A DNA stretch of 64,000 nt from Shinella kummerowiae (GTDB taxonomy: Bacteria > Pseudomonadota > Alphaproteobacteria > Rhizobiales > Rhizobiaceae), in assembly GCF_009827055.1 (NCBI RefSeq), contig NZ_WUMK01000006.1, positions 248,001 through 312,000 of the forward strand, written 5' to 3'. Shown here piece by piece: positions 5,292 through 64,000 of the stretch (position 1 is the first letter of the stretch; each line of letters opens with the position of its first letter). A model generated the notes under the pieces. That model saw nothing but the letters and a program-made list of their open reading frames with translations, had not been told where the DNA came from and did not search any database. Position numbers and translations under genes: made by a program.

Positions 5292-6791
5292 ATGAACGAC
5301 GCCGTGCGCAAGCTCAACCAGACCGGTCGCGAGAATGCGGAGCTGCACCACCGCGAGGCACCGAACAACGTCGAGGCCGAACAGGCCCTGCTCGGCGCCA
5401 TCCTCGTCAACAACGACGCCTATTACCGTGTCTCGGACTTCTTGAAGCCCATCCACTTCAACGAGCCACTGCACCGCAAGATCTACGAACTTGCCGGCGA
5501 CACGATTCGTATGGGCAAGATCGCCACGACGATCACCCTGAAGACGCACCTGCCCACCGACAGCAAGGTCGGCGACCTGACGATCCCGCAATATCTTGCA
5601 CGCCTTGCCGCCGAAGCAGTGACGATCATCAACGCGGAAGATTATGGCCGGGCGATCTACGACCTGGCGCTCCGCCGCTCGCTGATCAATATCGGCGAGG
5701 ACATGGTCAACATCGCCTATGATGCGCCGCTCGACATGCCGCCGCAGACCCAGATCGAGGATGCGGAGCGCCGCCTGTTCGAACTGGCCGAGACCGGCCG
5801 CTATGACGGTGGTTTCCAGTCGTTCAACGATGCGGTGGCGCTGGCGATCGACATGGCCGGCCAGGCCTTCGAGCGCGACGGCTCGCTCTCCGGCATCTCC
5901 ACCGGCATCCATTCGCTCGACGGCCGCATGGGCGGCCTCCAGCGCTCCGACTTGATCGTGCTCGCCGGACGCCCCGGCATGGGCAAGACGTCGCTTGCCA
6001 CCAACATCGCCTATAACATTGCCGCCGCCTACGAGCCGGAAATCCAGGCCGACGGATCCTACAAGGCGAAGAACGGCGGCGTCGTCGGCTTCTACTCGCT
6101 CGAAATGTCCTCCGAACAGCTCGCCACCCGTATTATCTCCGAGCAGACGGAAGTCTCCTCGTCGAAGATCCGCCGTGGCGACATCTCCGAGGCCGATTTC
6201 GAGAAGCTCGTCGCCTGCAGCCAGATGATGCAGAAGGTGCCGCTCTATATCGACCAGACCGGTGGTATCTCGATTGCCCAGTTGTCCGCCCGCGCCCGCC
6301 GTCTCAAGCGCCAGCGCGGCCTCGATTGCCTGGTGGTGGACTATATCCAGCTGATGACCGGCTCGGGAAAATCCAGCGACAACCGCGTGCAGGAAATCAC
6401 CCAGATCACCACCGGCCTGAAGGCGCTCGGCAAGGAACTGAACGTGCCGATCATCGCGCTTTCCCAGCTCTCGCGTCAGGTGGAAAGCCGCGAGGACAAG
6501 CGCCCGCAGCTCTCCGACCTTCGCGAATCCGGCTCGATCGAGCAGGACGCCGACGTCGTGCTCTTCGTGTTCCGCGAGGAATATTACGTGAAGAACCTGG
6601 AGCCGCGCGACGAGTTCGACCCGAAATACGAAGAGTGGAAGATGAAGTTCGAGGCCGTGAAGGGCACGGCGGACGTCATCATCGCCAAGCAGCGTCACGG
6701 GCCGACCGGCACGGTGAAGCTCGCCTTCCAGTCGGAATTCACCCGCTTCACCGACCTCGCCGACCCGTCGTTCACGCAGTACGAGCACTGA
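5292..6791 (+). CDS. dnaB: replicative DNA helicase DnaB
   Basis: The hexameric helicase unwinds DNA at the replication fork. The 499-residue product has the N-terminal primase-interaction domain (about 20-125, NVEAEQALLGAILV) and the RecA-like motor domain. Visible motifs are Walker A GRPGMGKTS (226-234), Walker B LDCLVVDYIQLMTG (344-357), and the arginine-finger region near LSQLSRQVESREDKRPQLSD. A Rhizobiales-type insertion of about 20 residues (EIQADGSYKAKNGG) sits after Walker A. It follows a 186-nt gap with no clear promoter. A palindromic repeat follows the gene. Confidence 0.97.
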   Translation: MNDAVRKLNQTGRENAELHHREAPNNVEAEQALLGAILVNNDAYYRVSDFLKPIHFNEPLHRKIYELAGDTIRMGKIATTITLKTHLPTDSKVGDLTIPQYLARLAAEAVTIINAEDYGRAIYDLALRRSLINIGEDMVNIAYDAPLDMPPQTQIEDAERRLFELAETGRYDGGFQSFNDAVALAIDMAGQAFERDGSLSGISTGIHSLDGRMGGLQRSDLIVLAGRPGMGKTSLATNIAYNIAAAYEPEIQADGSYKAKNGGVVGFYSLEMSSEQLATRIISEQTEVSSSKIRRGDISEADFEKLVACSQMMQKVPLYIDQTGGISIAQLSARARRLKRQRGLDCLVVDYIQLMTGSGKSSDNRVQEITQITTGLKALGKELNVPIIALSQLSRQVESREDKRPQLSDLRESGSIEQDADVVLFVFREEYYVKNLEPRDEFDPKYEEWKMKFEAVKGTADVIIAKQRHGPTGTVKLAFQSEFTRFTDLADPSFTQYEH

Positions 6792-6824
6792 GTCCGGCGT
6801 CACCGGCTCAAGCGTACAAGGCTG

Positions 6825-6942
6825 CCCCCCTCATCCGCCTGCCGACGCCTTCTCCCCGCTGGAGAGAAGGGAAGGATCGTGACGTCTCGTTTTCCCCCTT
6901 CTCCCCCCCGGGGGAGAAGGTGGCGGCAGCCGGATGAGGGGG
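6825..6942 (+). repeat. RIME-like palindromic intergenic repeat, copy 1
   Basis: About 118 bp form a long imperfect inverted repeat: the left end CCCCCTCATCCG mirrors the right end CGGATGAGGGGG, and inner CTTCTCCCC / GGGGAGAAGG arms pair around the centre. A diverged second copy lies at 56223-56336. The pattern matches the mosaic palindromes (RIME type) scattered through rhizobial genomes. It sits between the dnaB stop and a convergent minus-strand gene. Confidence 0.75.
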
Positions 6943-6986
6943 ATGCGTAACGTTTCGGTTTTTTGACAACCAAGCCTTTGCCGGTC

Positions 6987-7589
6987 TTATTTCTTCGCAA
7001 ATGCCGGAGCCTTGCAGAAGTTTGCCACGATGGCGAGCGCGCGCGTGGCGCGTGCCTTCTGCTCCTCGTCCATCATCGGCAGGTCGAGCCTGTCGGCACA
7101 CATTTCCTCCGACGCGTTGTTCTGGCCGGACAGTGACATGCGGCTGGTACAGTAAAGGCCCTCGCCCGTCAGGACGATCTGCTCGACCTCCGGTGAATCG
7201 ATGGGAACCGGGTTCGCCTCGGCAATCATGTCATCGGCCGACGCATAGGCGGTGACGGCGGCGACCCGGCTCAAATCGACGAGGCCGAGCGTCAGCGTCG
7301 CCCATTGCTCCGGGAATTGCAGCGCGGAGGTTGTGCGGGCGCGGCAGGGCGCACCGGAGACCTCGAGCCGTGTCACCAGCCGCGGCGCATTGGGGTTGTC
7401 GACGATCGAGTAGTAAACGTCGCCGCCCTTGTCGCGCTCCGGCGCGGCGCCATCCTGGACAAGGCCGAGCAGAACGGCGTGCGCCGCGCGCATGTCGGCA
7501 TCCGTCGGCGAATCCTGGGCAACCGTTGAGGCCTTGCCGGCCAGGACGAACACCATCGCCCCAATGGTCGCTGTCACCGCGCGCCGCAT
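6987..7589 (-). CDS. secreted protein of unknown function
   Basis: The 200-residue product has a clear signal peptide (MRRAVTATIGAMVFVLAGKASTVAQ, cleavage near residue 25) and is otherwise soluble, so it is probably periplasmic. Four cysteines in the mature part (GAPCRAR, GLYCTSR, EMCADR, NFCKAP) could form two disulfides. The start at 7589 is chosen because AAAGGAAAG lies just upstream; an upstream start at 7622 would bury the signal peptide. It is divergent from alr. I do not recognise the family. Confidence 0.75.
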   Translation of the reverse strand: MRRAVTATIGAMVFVLAGKASTVAQDSPTDADMRAAHAVLLGLVQDGAAPERDKGGDVYYSIVDNPNAPRLVTRLEVSGAPCRARTTSALQFPEQWATLTLGLVDLSRVAAVTAYASADDMIAEANPVPIDSPEVEQIVLTGEGLYCTSRMSLSGQNNASEEMCADRLDLPMMDEEQKARATRALAIVANFCKAPAFAKK

Positions 7590-7690
7590 CGTCTTTCCTT
7601 TTTTTGCACACCATAGAGACACCCCCTTCCGACGGCAATGCGACGGACGAGCGTATTGCCGCCATAGTCCACAGGCTGTATCTCAGAACC

Positions 7691-8860
7691 ATGAGCACGC
7701 ACCCTACGCCCGCCCGTCCCACCCTGCCCGTCGCCGGCGAGGATCACGCCCGCCTGACGATCGACCTTTCGGCGCTTGCCGACAATTGGCGCGCCATGGC
7801 CCGCCGCTCGGGTGCGGCCCGAACCGCAGCGGTGCTGAAGGCGGACGCCTACGGCGTCGGGCTCGAGCCCGCGGCAAGGACCTTCCACCAGGCGGGTGCG
7901 CGCGACTTCTTCGTCGCCACGCCTGCCGAGGGGGCAACGCTGCGCGGTGTTTTGCCGGATGTCCGCATCTATGTGCTGTCCGGCATGTGGGCAGGCTCCG
8001 AGCGGCTGTTCTTCGAATTCGACCTGGTGCCGGTCATCGTCTCGGAAGAGCAGCTCGTCGTCTTCATGTCGGCCATCGCCGATGGCGGTGACCTGCCCTG
8101 CGTTTTGCATGTCGACACCGGCATGAGCCGGCTCGGCCTGCGCGTCGAGGATGCGCTGGCGCTGGCTAGCGATACCGCGCGGCCGGCAAGCTTCTCGCCG
8201 ATCATGCTGCTCAGCCATCTCGCCTGTGCGGACGACCCCAGCCATCCGCTGAACCGCCAGCAGCTCCAGCGCTTCCGCAGCGTCGTCGAGGCCTTTGACG
8301 ACATCGACGCGACGCTCGCCAACTCGGCCGGCATCTTCCTCGGCGAGGACTATCATTTCACCCTCACCCGCCCCGGTATCGCGCTCTACGGCGGTGCGGC
8401 CGTCAACGACGTGCCGAACCCGATGAAGCCGGTCGTCACCGCCGAGGCGCGCATTCTCCAGGTGCGCGAGGCGAAGACCGGCGAAAGCGTCAGCTATGGC
8501 GCGTCGACCGTGTTTACCCGCGACACGCGCATCGCGGTCGCCGCTATCGGCTATGCGGACGGGTACATGCGCAGCCTTTCCGGCTCCGGCGTGCCGCTGC
8601 GCAAGGCGAGTATCCCGGGCGCCAGCGGCGTGCTGCATGGCCGTTCCGTGCCCCTGATCGGCCGCGTCACCATGGACCTTACCCATTTCGACGTCACCGA
8701 CCTTCCGGCCGGCAGCGTGCGGGCCGGTGATTTCATCGAACTGTTCGGGCGCCACATGCCGATCGAGGATGTCGCTCGCGCTGGCGGCACCATCGACTAT
8801 GAGCTTTTGACCAGTCTGGGCGGGCGTTACGAACGACGCTACGAATTGGCAAAAAAATAG
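7691..8860 (+). CDS. alr: alanine racemase
   Basis: This PLP enzyme makes D-alanine for peptidoglycan. The 389-residue product shows the PLP-lysine motif AVLKADAYGVG (Lys50), HVDTGMSRLG (140-149), RPGIALYGG (227-235) and the catalytic tyrosine in SYGAS (Tyr269). These mark a fold-type III racemase. The ATG at 7691 is chosen because catalytic spacing and length then fit the family; the frame is open far upstream, but that part reads as antisense to the neighbouring gene. Its place near dnaB and radA is conserved in rhizobia. Confidence 0.95.
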   Translation: MSTHPTPARPTLPVAGEDHARLTIDLSALADNWRAMARRSGAARTAAVLKADAYGVGLEPAARTFHQAGARDFFVATPAEGATLRGVLPDVRIYVLSGMWAGSERLFFEFDLVPVIVSEEQLVVFMSAIADGGDLPCVLHVDTGMSRLGLRVEDALALASDTARPASFSPIMLLSHLACADDPSHPLNRQQLQRFRSVVEAFDDIDATLANSAGIFLGEDYHFTLTRPGIALYGGAAVNDVPNPMKPVVTAEARILQVREAKTGESVSYGASTVFTRDTRIAVAAIGYADGYMRSLSGSGVPLRKASIPGASGVLHGRSVPLIGRVTMDLTHFDVTDLPAGSVRAGDFIELFGRHMPIEDVARAGGTIDYELLTSLGGRYERRYELAKK

Positions 8861-8928
8861 GACATGTTCTTGTTTTGTGCTATCGGCTTTCGGAATGAGT
8901 CCTTGAACCCTCCGGAAAGCAAGACCTG

Positions 8929-10332
8929 ATGGCGAAAGCCCGCACCCAATTCGTCTGCCAGAACTGTGGCACCGCGCATTCCCGCTGGGTCGGGAAATGC
9001 GAGGGCTGCGGCGAGTGGAACACCGTCGTCGAGGAAGACCCGATGGGCGGCATCGGTTCCGGGCCCGGCAAGGTGCCCAAGAAAGGCCGGCCGGTTGCGC
9101 TGACGGCGCTGTCGGGCGAAATCGAGGAAGCACCACGCATCCACACCGGCATCGGTGAACTCGACCGGGCGACCGGCGGCGGCTTCGTGCGCGGTTCGGC
9201 CGTGCTGATCGGCGGCGATCCCGGCATCGGTAAATCGACGCTGCTGATGCAGGCCGCCGCCGCCCTCTCCCGCCGCGGCCACCGCGTCATCTATGTCTCG
9301 GGCGAAGAGGCCGTCGCGCAGGTGCGGTTACGCGCGCAACGCTTGCAGGCGGCCGAGACCGACGTGCTGCTCGCCGCCGAGACCAATGTCGAGGACATTC
9401 TCGCCACCATCGGCGAAGGCAAGCGGCCGGACCTCGTCATCATCGATTCGATCCAGACGCTGTGGAGCGACACGGCCGAGGCAGCGCCCGGCACGGTGAC
9501 GCAGGTGCGAACCGGTGTGCAGGCGATGATCCGCTTTGCCAAGCAGACGGGTGCGGCCATGGTGCTCGTCGGCCATGTCACCAAGGACGGGCAAATCGCC
9601 GGCCCGCGCGTCGTCGAGCACATGGTCGATGCCGTGCTCTATTTCGAGGGCGACCGCGGCCACCACTACCGAATCCTGCGCACCGTCAAGAACCGTTTCG
9701 GACCGACGGACGAGATCGGCGTGTTCGAAATGTCCGACAAGGGGCTGCGCGAAGTCTCCAATCCATCGGAACTCTTTCTTGGCGAACGCAATGCGAAGTC
9801 GCCGGGTGCGGCCGTCTTTGCCGGGATGGAGGGCACGCGTCCCGTTCTCGTCGAAGTGCAGGCGCTCGTCGCCCCCACCTCGCTCGGCACGCCGCGCCGG
9901 GCCATCGTCGGCTGGGATTCGGCAAGGCTGTCGATGATCCTCGCGGTGCTGGAAGCGCATTGCGGCGTACGGCTCGGGCAACACGATGTTTACCTCAACG
10001 TGGCGGGCGGTTATCGCATTTCCGAGCCGGCGGCGGACCTTGCCGTTGCCTCCGCGCTCGTTTCGTCACTTGCCGGACTTGCCCTTCCCGCCGATTGCGT
10101 CTATTTCGGCGAAGTCAGCCTGTCGGGCGCCATTCGCCCGGTGGCGCACACCGCCCAGCGCCTCAAGGAGGCGGAAAAACTGGGTTTTTCGCAGGCCGTG
10201 CTCCCCGCCGGTTCCGCCGATCTGCCGAAAGGCGCGGGCGGACGCTGGAACGAGATCGAAAGCCTGCCGGATCTGGTGGCGCGCATTGCCGGATCGAAGA
10301 GTGCCCTGAAGCGGGAAGACGAGGACGTCTGA
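8929..10332 (+). CDS. radA: DNA repair protein RadA
   Basis: RadA (Sms) is a RecA-like branch-migration helicase that helps process recombination intermediates. The 467-residue product has an N-terminal C4 zinc finger (Cys10, 13, 24, 27), Walker A GGDPGIGKST (95-104), Walker B around LVIIDSIQTLWS (169-180), the diagnostic KNRFG motif (254-258), and a C-terminal Lon-like domain (about 300-460, [14 protein letters not shown]). All parts are intact. GGAAAG precedes the ATG. It is followed by a repeat element and cvpA. Confidence 0.97.
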   Translation: MAKARTQFVCQNCGTAHSRWVGKCEGCGEWNTVVEEDPMGGIGSGPGKVPKKGRPVALTALSGEIEEAPRIHTGIGELDRATGGGFVRGSAVLIGGDPGIGKSTLLMQAAAALSRRGHRVIYVSGEEAVAQVRLRAQRLQAAETDVLLAAETNVEDILATIGEGKRPDLVIIDSIQTLWSDTAEAAPGTVTQVRTGVQAMIRFAKQTGAAMVLVGHVTKDGQIAGPRVVEHMVDAVLYFEGDRGHHYRILRTVKNRFGPTDEIGVFEMSDKGLREVSNPSELFLGERNAKSPGAAVFAGMEGTRPVLVEVQALVAPTSLGTPRRAIVGWDSARLSMILAVLEAHCGVRLGQHDVYLNVAGGYRISEPAADLAVASALVSSLAGLALPADCVYFGEVSLSGAIRPVAHTAQRLKEAEKLGFSQAVLPAGSADLPKGAGGRWNEIESLPDLVARIAGSKSALKREDEDV

Positions 10333-10414
10333 CGCCCTCCGGCGCGCGGCAATGCCCTGTGGGAAACGCGTGCCGAACTGAGACGGCGAAGGCGCCTTGC
10401 GTTACTGGGTAATT

Positions 10415-10478
10415 CCTTAGATCGGAATCGATTTAAGGACAAAATTATGCAGCAGCTTTTTGTTGCTACAGCGTCCTT
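10415..10478 (+). repeat. palindromic intergenic element before cvpA
   Basis: Two nested inverted repeats abut. The first pairs CCTTA-ATCG (10415 on) with CGAT-TAAGG (to 10438). The second pairs AAGGAC (10435-10440) with GTCCTT (10473-10478) around an AT-rich core with GCAGC and GTTGC. I recall near-identical motifs (ATCGATTTAAGGACAAAATT and CTACAGCGTCCTTTG) as recurring between genes in rhizobia, but no second full copy occurs in this window. Confidence 0.5.
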
Positions 10479-10568
10479 TGCGCGTCATGAATGGCGCGCG
10501 GCGCAGTAGAGTGCGCCCCGCATGGGATGTGGGGCCCGGCGACATTTCGGGTTTGGAGTAGGACGAAC

Positions 10569-11198
10569 ATGCCCATCACAATTCTCGACGGTATCGTCAT
10601 CGGCGTTGCGCTGTTCTCGGCAGTGCTGGCGATGGTGCGTGGTTTCTCGCGCGAAGTGCTTTCCGTCGCAAGCTGGGTGGGTGCCGCGGCAGCCGCCTAC
10701 TTCCTCTATCCGGTGCTGCTTCCCTACGCGAAGGACTATACGACGAGCGACACGGTCGCGATGGTCGGCTCCGCCGCCGCCGTCTTCCTGGTCGCGCTCA
10801 TCGTGATCTCCTTCATCACCATGCGCATCGCCGACTTCATCATCGACAGCCGCATCGGCGCGCTCGACCGCACGCTCGGCTTCCTGTTCGGCGCCGCCCG
10901 CGGCATCCTGCTCGTCGTCGTCGCCATGCTGTTCTTCAACTGGCTGGTCGCACCGCAGCAGCAGCCGGGCTGGGTCACCACCGCAAAATCCAAGCCGCTG
11001 CTCGACAATCTCGGCTCGCGCCTCGTGGCGCTCCTGCCGGAAGATGCCGATGCGACGATCATCGATCGCCTGCGCGGCAAACCGGCCGAAGGCGCACCGG
11101 CAGAGGGCGGCGCGGAAGACCCGGATGCGGCCACCGGCGGCACGGGCCAAGGCACTGGCCAGACGCCCGCCGAAGAGACCCCGGCAACGAACGGATAA
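10569..11198 (+). CDS. cvpA: CvpA family membrane protein
   Basis: The 209-residue protein has four membrane segments in about residues 5-130, with the CvpA pattern DGIVIGVALFSAVLAMVRGFSREVLSV near the start and a second family-like stretch (GALDRTLGFLFGAARGILLVVV). The last 50 residues are a low-complexity Pro/Gly/Ala/Thr-rich tail. The family is linked genetically to colicin V production and envelope stress in enterics; the biochemical role is unknown. The start is chosen by GGAGTAGGA upstream. It lies upstream of purF, as in many proteobacteria, but a strong terminator separates them here. Confidence 0.92.
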   Translation: MPITILDGIVIGVALFSAVLAMVRGFSREVLSVASWVGAAAAAYFLYPVLLPYAKDYTTSDTVAMVGSAAAVFLVALIVISFITMRIADFIIDSRIGALDRTLGFLFGAARGILLVVVAMLFFNWLVAPQQQPGWVTTAKSKPLLDNLGSRLVALLPEDADATIIDRLRGKPAEGAPAEGGAEDPDAATGGTGQGTGQTPAEETPATNG

Positions 11199-58655: not shown

Positions 58656-59549
58656 TCAGACTTCGGCTGCGATACGGCCCACCTCGGCGATGACGGCATT
58701 GCGCTCGTCGCCGGAAATGCCCGGCATTTCCACGAAGGCGCTGACGATGATCGCGCCACGGTTCGGCGACCAGGCGATGGCGACGTCATTGGCATTGCCG
58801 GCCTTGTCACCGTTGGTGCCGGTCTTGTCGCCGGTCATCCAGTCGGCGGGGAAACCGGCGCGCAACCGTGTGTCACCCGTCTTGTTCATGACGAGCCAGG
58901 CGGCGAGCTGCGCCTTCGAGCGCGGCGACAGCACGTCGCCGAAGATCAGCTTGCGCAGCGTCTCGATCATCGCGACCGGGGTGGTCGTGTCGCGTTCGTC
59001 ATCCGGCGTGTCGTGATAGTTGAGCGTCGGCTCCGTACGGTCGAGCCGCGTGATGTCGTCTCCGAAACCGCGCAGGAACTCGGTGACGGCCTTCGGGCCG
59101 CCGGAAGAGGCCAGCAGAAGATTGGCGGCGGCATTGTCGCTAAGCGTGATGGTTGCCTCGCAGAGCTCGGCAATCGAAATGCCATCACCGCCGATACGCT
59201 TTTCCACGACCGGCGCCCAATCGACGAGGTCTGATTTCTTGACGACGATGCGACGGTCGAGCGCCTCTTCCTCGCGGTCGACGCGGGCGAGGATGTGCCC
59301 GGCAAGCAGCGCCTTGAAGGTGCTGCACATCAAAAAGCGTTCGTCCGTGCGGTGACCGAGCCGCGCGCCCGTCGCGAAATTAAGTATGGCAACACCAAGG
59401 CGGCCTTCATGGCGGGCCTCAAGCTCCGCCAGCCGCTTTTCCAACGTGCCGCCCGCCGCAGCGGCGGCGCCGCCGGTCAATGCGGAGACCGCCGGAACGG
59501 CAAGCAGTGCGCCGGCAATGGCCTGCCGGCGTGAAATCGTCATCGTCAT
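58656..59549 (-). CDS. class A beta-lactamase
   Basis: The enzyme hydrolyses beta-lactam rings in the periplasm. The 297-residue product has a Tat signal (SRRQAIAG, residues 6-13), the active-site STFK (Ser76 to Lys79), SDN (137-139), the deacylation Glu173 in RTEPTLN, and KTG (242-244). A cysteine directly before the active Ser (Cys75) is present as in several carbapenemases, but position 238 (standard numbering) is Asn. The ATG at 59549 follows AGGAAA at 6 nt. No ampR-like regulator or mobile element is next to it. Confidence 0.95.
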   Translation of the reverse strand: MTMTISRRQAIAGALLAVPAVSALTGGAAAAAGGTLEKRLAELEARHEGRLGVAILNFATGARLGHRTDERFLMCSTFKALLAGHILARVDREEEALDRRIVVKKSDLVDWAPVVEKRIGGDGISIAELCEATITLSDNAAANLLLASSGGPKAVTEFLRGFGDDITRLDRTEPTLNYHDTPDDERDTTTPVAMIETLRKLIFGDVLSPRSKAQLAAWLVMNKTGDTRLRAGFPADWMTGDKTGTNGDKAGNANDVAIAWSPNRGAIIVSAFVEMPGISGDERNAVIAEVGRIAAEV

Positions 59550-59689
59550 GTCCATTTTCCTGTCTGTCGGCGCCGGAAGCGCATCGCACCTTGCCGGCCC
59601 GTTCGAGCCCGCCCTTACCGCACTATGCAAAAGCGGATGGCTCAAAACAAACGACGATTTCTGCCGGCAGCCATTAGGAAAATTTGGGC

Positions 59690-62235: not shown

Positions 62236-63285
62236 ATGCGCGGAATCTATTTTGCAGCAGTCTCAATGACGGCCCTTGCGGCAGCCGGCCCCGCCAGTGC
62301 GGCAACGCTTAACCTGTTGATTTGGGAAGCCTATATCGACGAGACGATCCTCGCCGATTTTACCGCCGAGACCGGCGTCGAGGTCCGCCAGACCTTCTAC
62401 GACAGCGGCGATGTGCGTGATGAAATCCTCGCCGATCCGAACAGCAATGTCGACGTCGTCGTGACCAACGAGAACGGCGCGAAGCTTTACGGCAACCGCG
62501 GCGTGATCGCGACGCTGAACACCCAGAATGTTCCATCGCTCAAGGACTATGCCGACGACTGGGCAAAACGCTGCGGCGGTTACGGCGTGCCCTACCTCTG
62601 GGGCACGATGGGCATCCTCTACCGGACCGACAGGATCACCACGCCGCCGACCTCCTGGGCGGACATGATGACGCCGGACGAAAGCCTGCGCGGCCACATC
62701 GCCATGTATGACGACCATGCCGAGGCCTTTGTTGCACCGCTCGTGCTGCTCGGAAAGTCGGTGAACGCCAACGACAACGAGACCCTGAAAGCCGCCTACG
62801 AGCTGATGAAGGCACAGGCACCCTATGTGCTGACTTATGACTATGTCGTCACCTCGGTGCAGAGTGCCGACAAGGGGCCGAACATCCATATGGCGCTCGG
62901 CTATAGCGGCGACCAGTATACGCTGAACGAAAAGGTCAACACACCCGGCCTCTGGCGGTACGTCGTGCCCAAGGAAGGCACGCTTTCCTGGCTCGACTGC
63001 ATTTCCGTCAGCGAGCGCTCGAAGAACAAGGACATGGCGCTCAAGCTGGTCGACTACATCAGCAACGCCAAAAACGGCGCACGCAACGCCATCAAGCTCA
63101 ACATGCCGACCGCAAGTACGACGGCCCTCGCTCTGCTGCCGGAAGACATGCGATCCAATCCCGAAATCTATGCCGCACCGGAAATCCTGGCAAAGAGCCA
63201 GTTTCAGGAGGAACTGACCGTTCAATCGGTCCAGGCCCGCCGCCGCATTCTCAGCAGTCTGGCTCAATTCAGTGACGCTCGGTAA
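62236..63285 (+). CDS. PotD/PotF-like periplasmic polyamine-binding protein, sensor type
   Basis: The 349-residue product has a signal peptide (MTALAAAGPASA, cleavage near 22) and the spermidine/putrescine-binding pattern: LLIWEAYIDETILADFTAETGVEV, YDSGDVRDEILADP, VPYLWGTMGILYRTD, HMALGYSGDQYT. It is followed not by a transporter but by a gene for a membrane sensor that overlaps its end by 14 nt. The same arrangement is seen for NspS and MbaA of Vibrio cholerae. I infer a signalling role; polyamine binding is likely from the family. Confidence 0.85.
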   Translation: MRGIYFAAVSMTALAAAGPASAATLNLLIWEAYIDETILADFTAETGVEVRQTFYDSGDVRDEILADPNSNVDVVVTNENGAKLYGNRGVIATLNTQNVPSLKDYADDWAKRCGGYGVPYLWGTMGILYRTDRITTPPTSWADMMTPDESLRGHIAMYDDHAEAFVAPLVLLGKSVNANDNETLKAAYELMKAQAPYVLTYDYVVTSVQSADKGPNIHMALGYSGDQYTLNEKVNTPGLWRYVVPKEGTLSWLDCISVSERSKNKDMALKLVDYISNAKNGARNAIKLNMPTASTTALALLPEDMRSNPEIYAAPEILAKSQFQEELTVQSVQARRRILSSLAQFSDAR

Positions 63286-64000
63286 ACGCGCCCTCTCCCT
63301 CATTTTTCCGGTCGTCCTGGCGGGTTACGTGCTCGCGGCCTCGCTTATCTACTACTTCCAGAGCTCCGCGATCCTGGGGCTGGAGCGGGCTCGCCTCTGG
63401 CAGCAGATGGGCTTGCTCACCGCCGTCTTCCAGAACGACGTGACGCAGAATCGCAGCTTCATCTACTCGCTCGTTGAGGGCGGCGCGGTGCGTCTCTTCG
63501 TCAACGAGCCGGATGCCGCCTATCGCAACACCGCGCTCGGCGTGCGGCTGCAGCAAAGCATCACCTCGCTCTCCGACGACCGCAAGCGCTTCATTTCCGT
63601 GGCGATCATCCGCCCGCCGCTGACGGTCGACTACTATTTCGAGGACAGCGACGATCCGTTCGCCGAGATCACCCAGCAGCAACTCGACCATGCCCGCCAG
63701 ATGGTCGACAGCCCGCGGCTCTCGTCCTGGGCGTTCCTCGACGCGCCGGGGATCGAGCCGCTGATCGTGCATTCGGAATTCATCGATCCGCTAACCTTCA
63801 ACCGGCCTGTGGCAAGCGCCAAGCGCGGCGCGATCCTCGTGCAGACCGCCGTGCGGCCAAAAGCCTTTCTCGATATGAAACGGGCACTTGAAAAGGAATA
63901 TGGCGCGACGATCGAGATCGGGCAGCATCAGTTCCTGGCACAGGGCGCGCTTTCGGCGACGGCGTCGTTGAGCCCCTCCCTCTTCGCCCGCCTGACGCCG
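63272..64000 (+). CDS. membrane sensor protein, 5' part (cut by window edge)
   Basis: The ORF opens at GTG (63272) and stays open to the end (243 codons). It starts inside the binding-protein gene, 14 nt before its stop. The visible product has one N-terminal membrane helix (SLIFPVVLAGYVLAASLIYYF) followed by about 200 mostly hydrophilic residues, the layout of a periplasmic sensor domain before a second membrane helix. The output domain (GGDEF, EAL or kinase) is outside the window, so it cannot be identified. GTG is the best start; no ATG is near. Confidence 0.7.
   Translation, partial: MTLGKRALSLIFPVVLAGYVLAASLIYYFQSSAILGLERARLWQQMGLLTAVFQNDVTQNRSFIYSLVEGGAVRLFVNEPDAAYRNTALGVRLQQSITSLSDDRKRFISVAIIRPPLTVDYYFEDSDDPFAEITQQQLDHARQMVDSPRLSSWAFLDAPGIEPLIVHSEFIDPLTFNRPVASAKRGAILVQTAVRPKAFLDMKRALEKEYGATIEIGQHQFLAQGALSATASLSPSLFARLTP

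Follow-up and report, generated by a model that had tools for sequence, protein, structure and literature searches.

The closest described relatives of the gene pair reported here are the NspS-MbaA systems of Vibrio cholerae and Sinorhizobium meliloti. In V. cholerae, norspermidine-bound NspS associates with MbaA and favours synthesis of cyclic di-GMP (c-di-GMP); with apo or spermidine-bound NspS, MbaA degrades c-di-GMP, and both its SGDEF and its EVL motif are needed (PMC8967002, PMC8079147). A V. cholerae nspS mutant is unresponsive to polyamine mixtures (PMC8967002). In S. meliloti 1021, putrescine or spermine lower biofilm and exopolysaccharide (EPS) formation, a drop that is absent in an nspS mutant, whose biofilm, EPS and motility phenotypes depend on polyamines (PMC9993111, 2023). 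The authors of that study hypothesise that the V. cholerae scheme applies to the c-di-GMP effect in S. meliloti, and they name Shinella among the carriers (PMC9993111). The ligand responses of the rhizobial system are unlike those of V. cholerae (PMC9993111). An earlier note on the present DNA had put forward a rhizobial counterpart; with the S. meliloti system published in 2023 and Shinella named in the same paper, the Shinella pair belongs to a system already described in rhizobia.

The window analysed here is a stretch of 64,000 nucleotides from Shinella kummerowiae (contig NZ_WUMK01000006.1, positions 248,001 to 312,000). The earlier note had read an NspS/MbaA-like pair from a PotD/PotF-type gene at 62236 overlapped by a sensor ORF at 63272, the latter being only partly contained in the window. 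Both ORFs are present in the ORF list (Table 1), the second starting with GTG and remaining open to the window end; in the genome itself it corresponds to an 805-codon open frame (contig 38, 248001-312000). On a stretch of the same genome that extends past the window (L002; window position equals L002 position + 54000), the full mbaA-like product was read past base 64000 as a two-helix protein of 787 aa, running from the GTG to a stop at window-equivalent 65635. The overlap has the same 14 nt in the other Shinella loci except L029, where it is 4 nt, and overlap of the two genes is retained across families in the named loci, which are the best 80 of at least 576 candidate stretches encoding a relative.

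Table 1. Features of the nspS/mbaA-like locus, in window coordinates.
Feature	Position	Strand	Basis or remark
nspS-like gene, 349-aa periplasmic solute-binding protein (predicted)	62236..63285, stop codon included	+	ORF, SBP_bac_8, solved PotD/PotF relatives, S. meliloti identity
Probable signal peptide, residues 1-22	62236..62301	+	by eye: hydrophobic start, ASA end
C113 codon, one of the binding protein's only two cysteines	62572..62574	+	
C255 codon, other cysteine of the binding protein	62998..63000	+	
14-nt nspS/mbaA overlap, GTG start to TAA stop	63272..63285	+	
mbaA-like gene, residues 1-243 of 787 in window	63272..64000	+	ends outside window
First MbaA membrane helix, residues 8-26	63293..63349	+	hydropathy scan
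Most of MbaA periplasmic sensor domain, residues 28-243, predicted dCache-like	63353..64000	+	AlphaFold2 model

The family matches of the NspS-like protein identify it as a PotD/PotF-type binding protein: SBP_bac_8 in Pfam (7.4e-30) and, well under the equivalog cut-offs, the NCBIfam models for PotD and PotF. Its closest solved chains in a sequence search are polyamine binders by name (best 3.4e-33). A hydropathy scan of the protein gave no helix above the membrane threshold. By analogy with these relatives, we infer that a polyamine is the ligand of Shinella NspS.

The pocket was compared using eight residues that contact norspermidine when V. cholerae NspS is modelled by homology, all of which are found in S. 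meliloti NspS (PMC9993111). When these were mapped onto the window protein via S. meliloti, counting spacings by hand, six of the eight proved to be kept (W30, D59, Y223, D226, W252 and D254), and two were altered, N78 corresponding to D90 and L121 to F131; S. meliloti has D and F at positions 78 and 121, respectively. The modelled contact residues are not all kept in other NspS members either. Among the 60 loci with an MbaA-type sensor (within the best 80 of at least 576), position 78 is occupied by G in 31, E in 11, D in 10, N in 6 and S in 2, and position 121 by L in 54 and F in 6. Since these pocket positions vary, the preferred ligand of NspS may differ between lineages. A related, somewhat unlikely alternative is that the machine is the same and that another cationic amine or a further polyamine, homospermidine for example, gates MbaA. 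The exchanges of D for N78 and F for L121 relative to S. meliloti, the variability of position 78 and the departure of the S. meliloti responses from those of V. cholerae (PMC9993111) would all fit such a ligand, but six modelled contacts are kept and all the closest solved relatives by sequence are named as polyamine binders. The norspermidine and spermidine behaviour known from V. cholerae is in any case not transferable, as the S. meliloti responses differ and two modelled pocket positions have changed.

The second gene was found to encode the output domains that the earlier note had anticipated beyond base 64000. Pfam places a GGDEF domain at residues 339-502 (5e-36) and an EAL domain at residues 531-756 (2.1e-61), both past the window end, so that the downstream ORF codes for a GGDEF-EAL protein instead of the ABC permease or unrelated protein that the same note had considered as the contrary outcome. 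HAMP, also named there, was not matched by Pfam in the 787-aa protein up to E 0.1; in PMC9993111, a HAMP segment between membrane and cyclase is termed putative, from Prosite. The hydropathy scan gave two hydrophobic helices, residues 8-26 and 260-278, the second lying beyond the window, and the motifs SGDEF (425), EAL (552), N611, ELTE (643), DDFG (673), KLD and AEGV are intact. For the stretch of MbaA that the window covers, Pfam and NCBIfam gave no family up to E 1, and no solved structure was matched by sequence (one PDB row, E 0.64). The periplasmic domain of MbaA was modelled by AlphaFold2 as dCache-like with a mean pLDDT of 91.2, and the closest solved chains to the model in a VIA-align structure comparison are dCache-type sensor domains. 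Judged by these features, MbaA should be a membrane enzyme that makes or breaks c-di-GMP. The own genome holds 36 GGDEF and 5 PilZ matches, and c-di-GMP signalling is therefore present in it.

The S. meliloti pair (smc00991-smc00992), with which record L108 (strain USDA1021) was equated by gene order, resembles that of Shinella in its overlapping genes, in its SGDEF and EAL motifs and in its sequence, the window proteins being 58% identical to L108 over 344 residues for NspS and likewise 58% identical over 778 residues for MbaA. By these identities both Shinella proteins are orthologous to the S. meliloti pair, which upholds the assignment made from the partial second gene. The two loci differ in their neighbours (MFS and purD genes in S. 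meliloti, tex and era-rnc-lepB in Shinella), in the overlap (4 nt versus 14 nt) and in the two pocket positions described above; S. meliloti MbaA itself is 790 aa in L108 and 787 aa in PMC9993111. The V. cholerae system shares with Shinella the plan of the pair, the SGDEF motif, the gene overlap and a periplasmic domain between two helices (PMC8079147, PMC8967002), whereas its phosphodiesterase motif is EVL (PMC8079147) where Shinella has EAL. The sequence comparison used a stand-in for V. cholerae, a genome that is probably Vibrio and whose NspS is 29% identical to the window's. The marks of an NspS-MbaA system found at the Shinella locus are thus a PotD/PotF-type gene overlapping a sensor gene, a periplasmic domain between helices followed by GGDEF and EAL, the SGDEF and ExL motifs with metal ligands, and sequence orthology to a tested member. 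The LuxP-LuxQ system of Vibrio, in contrast, differs from NspS-MbaA in all of binding-protein family, ligand and output, since it combines another family of binding protein with AI-2 as ligand and a histidine kinase output.

The genes around the pair in the window genome, named from Pfam, are tex, the GGDEF-EAL gene, a GDPD gene, era, rnc and lepB. A Beta-lactamase-family gene at window 58656-59645 on the minus strand (Pfam Beta-lactamase2, 2.8e-41) adjoins tex, and relatives of it occupy the equivalent place in five other Shinella loci. Within the Rhizobiaceae the pair was found in two main genomic homes. The first, between tex and the genes era, rnc and lepB, is seen in Shinella, Mycoplana, L033 and L034; the second adjoins purD, in most cases with an MFS gene at the opposite end, in Sinorhizobium, Ensifer, Pararhizobium and others. 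Neither arrangement is seen in L051 and L066. The MFS neighbour in S. meliloti is fsr (PMC12095868). No ATPase or permease genes lie beside the binding protein, and the nearest permease among the matches listed is about 50 kb off, in agreement with the earlier claim that a sensor ORF stands in place of ABC transporter genes. An ABC importer was ruled out at this place, the next gene being GGDEF-EAL and no permease lying near among the matches listed. It is also very improbable that NspS is an ordinary ABC-importer binding protein whose transporter is encoded elsewhere, with the sensor gene adjoining by accident. Membership of the PotD/PotF superfamily and the many permeases of the genome (151 matches in a search in which 150 of 191 candidates were scored) would allow for this, but 12 of the 15 other SBP relatives of the genome have a permease, among the matches listed, within 5 kb, as opposed to about 50 kb here, and the pair stays intact while its surroundings vary, the two genes being adjacent in all 25 hits in relatives.

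Those hits come from a search of 61 genomes, in which the sensor (E <= 1e-3) and the binding protein (E <= 1e-60) co-occur in the same 24 genomes and lie side by side in every one of the 25 pairs, one genome having two. Broken down by rank, the pair was found in 21 of 21 genomes of the genus (counting the own one), in 3 of the 16 further genomes of the family and in 0 of the 24 further ones of the order. The genus is given as Shinella, since several congeners have scores identical to those of named Shinella loci. An unpaired binding protein was ruled out, as each of the 25 hits has an adjoining sensor match. Values of dN/dS between 0.05 and 0.24, against eight hand-picked loci of the genus, indicate that the gene pair is under purifying selection; together with the presence in all congeners searched, this excludes a chance ORF. 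Trees of both proteins, drawn from hand-picked rows (52 in the first tree set and 38 in the second; the structure alignment had 30), put the Shinella pair within the Rhizobiaceae, with S. meliloti. A recent gain from Pseudomonas, suggested by a shared overlap length, was rejected on this placement. Distances in the NspS and MbaA trees correlate with r 0.91 over 38 loci, a value that carries no neutral control. Within the genus, the genome represented by L021, whose scores equal those of Shinella pollutisoli (L030), also contains a second, divergent pair (L026), which is 44-45% identical to that of the window and groups with the pair of Ectorhizobium quercum.

Among the best 80 of at least 576 stretches, an MbaA-type sensor domain lies downstream in 60, another GGDEF-EAL protein in 15 and neither in 5. 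The cyclase motif in the 60 MbaA-type loci is SGDEF in 56, AGDEF in 2 and YGDEF in 1, with none in the piece used for the remaining one. Two of the 15 other GGDEF-EAL proteins were scanned, and both gave a dCache_1 match under its cut-off and a HAMP match above. In L105 and L106 the NspS-like gene is followed by a hybrid histidine kinase and in L103 by a kinase-receiver-GGDEF protein, that is, the same kind of input stands beside another output. A sensor-like ORF follows the binding protein in L097 and is cut by the contig end. In L050, L064 and L076 the sensor frame is split in the record, through a decayed gene or a sequencing error, and the best single piece was taken, unmended. Two Marinobacter loci (L100 and L102, about 5930-10640) carry a tandem pair of NspS-like genes ahead of one GGDEF-EAL sensor gene, so that two binding proteins may feed a single sensor.

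Across 398 sampled genomes of the phylum, counting the own one, an MbaA-type sensor was found in 12 (E <= 1e-5), eight of which have NspS in the flank examined; that of L115 does not overlap the sensor gene. The other four (L117, L119, L120 and L121) belong to a single genus, probably Vibrio, and have no NspS in the examined flank; the closest binding proteins in these genomes share 26-28% identity with the NspS of a sister genome. NspS thus seems to be lacking for some sensors of the MbaA type, and the sensor can therefore exist without its partner. A possible explanation is that MbaA senses directly and that NspS is a helper or now dispensable, as dCache domains often bind ligands directly and as four of the seven genomes of this Vibrio-like genus have only such distant binding proteins elsewhere. 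For the Shinella pair we regard this as improbable, given that the two genes stay together in the sampled Rhizobiaceae and that the V. cholerae nspS mutant has lost its response to polyamines (PMC8967002).

The sole cysteines of the window NspS, C113 and C255, are both found in 60 of 60 binding proteins beside an MbaA-type sensor (best 80 of at least 576, mostly one clade), and in none of the 15 beside other GGDEF-EAL sensors in the same set. Among the five loci with neither sensor type, they occur in L080 and in none of the other four. L080 (Bermanella, 5974-7005) encodes an NspS-like protein without an adjoining sensor gene, a biotin-dependent carboxylase being next. Both cysteines are further absent from all 15 other SBP relatives of the own genome, and present in 8 of 8 adjacent NspS of the phylum sample, the window's own being one. 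In five alignments examined, from 25 matched solved chains, no cysteine stands at either place. These counts lean to close kin, as the loci were ranked by likeness to the window NspS, and the grouping by likeness to the window MbaA (phmmer, E 1e-5) also depends on kinship, so the pattern may be a single inherited change. By position, C113 and C255 presumably flank the two hinge strands of the binding-protein fold, which makes a C113-C255 disulfide plausible. It is a doubtful, speculative extension that the pair is common to binding proteins that signal through MbaA and do not transport, and that the disulfide, if formed, may set the hinge so that the sensor reads the closed, ligand-bound shape, or may add periplasmic redox sensing. 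The words cysteine and disulfide are absent from the main texts of PMC8967002, PMC8079147 and PMC9993111, though the wider NspS literature may mention the pair.

Taken together, the Shinella pair is very probably an NspS-MbaA orthologue that acts as a polyamine-gated c-di-GMP switch. This reading follows from the 58% identities, the six of eight kept contacts, the intact motifs and the confident dCache-like model, from the adjacency of the two genes in 25 pairs across 24 of 61 genomes, the overlap retained across families and the purifying selection, from the V. cholerae and S. meliloti genetics (PMC8967002, PMC8079147, PMC9993111), and from the 36 GGDEF and 5 PilZ matches of the genome; N78 and L121, the four of 12 sensors without NspS in the flank and the missing Pfam HAMP speak against it. 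The presence of the two genes and their joint inheritance, together with the membrane topology, the fold of the sensor and its intact catalytic motifs, are read from the DNA and its predicted products. By analogy with the relatives, NspS would be exported to the periplasm, where it would bind a polyamine and, in one of its states, dock on the periplasmic, dCache-like domain of MbaA. This contact would switch the cytoplasmic GGDEF-EAL module between synthesis and breakdown of c-di-GMP, and external polyamines would thereby tune attachment, exopolysaccharide and swimming.

With the pair present in all 21 Shinella genomes that were searched, c-di-GMP sensing of the polyamine type is a standing trait of the genus. 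The rhizobial tests of the system, in the papers found, come from S. meliloti, and the Shinella pair widens the set available for comparison. The cysteine pair, along with the variable pocket positions, would provide a simple sequence mark separating signalling from transport binding proteins.
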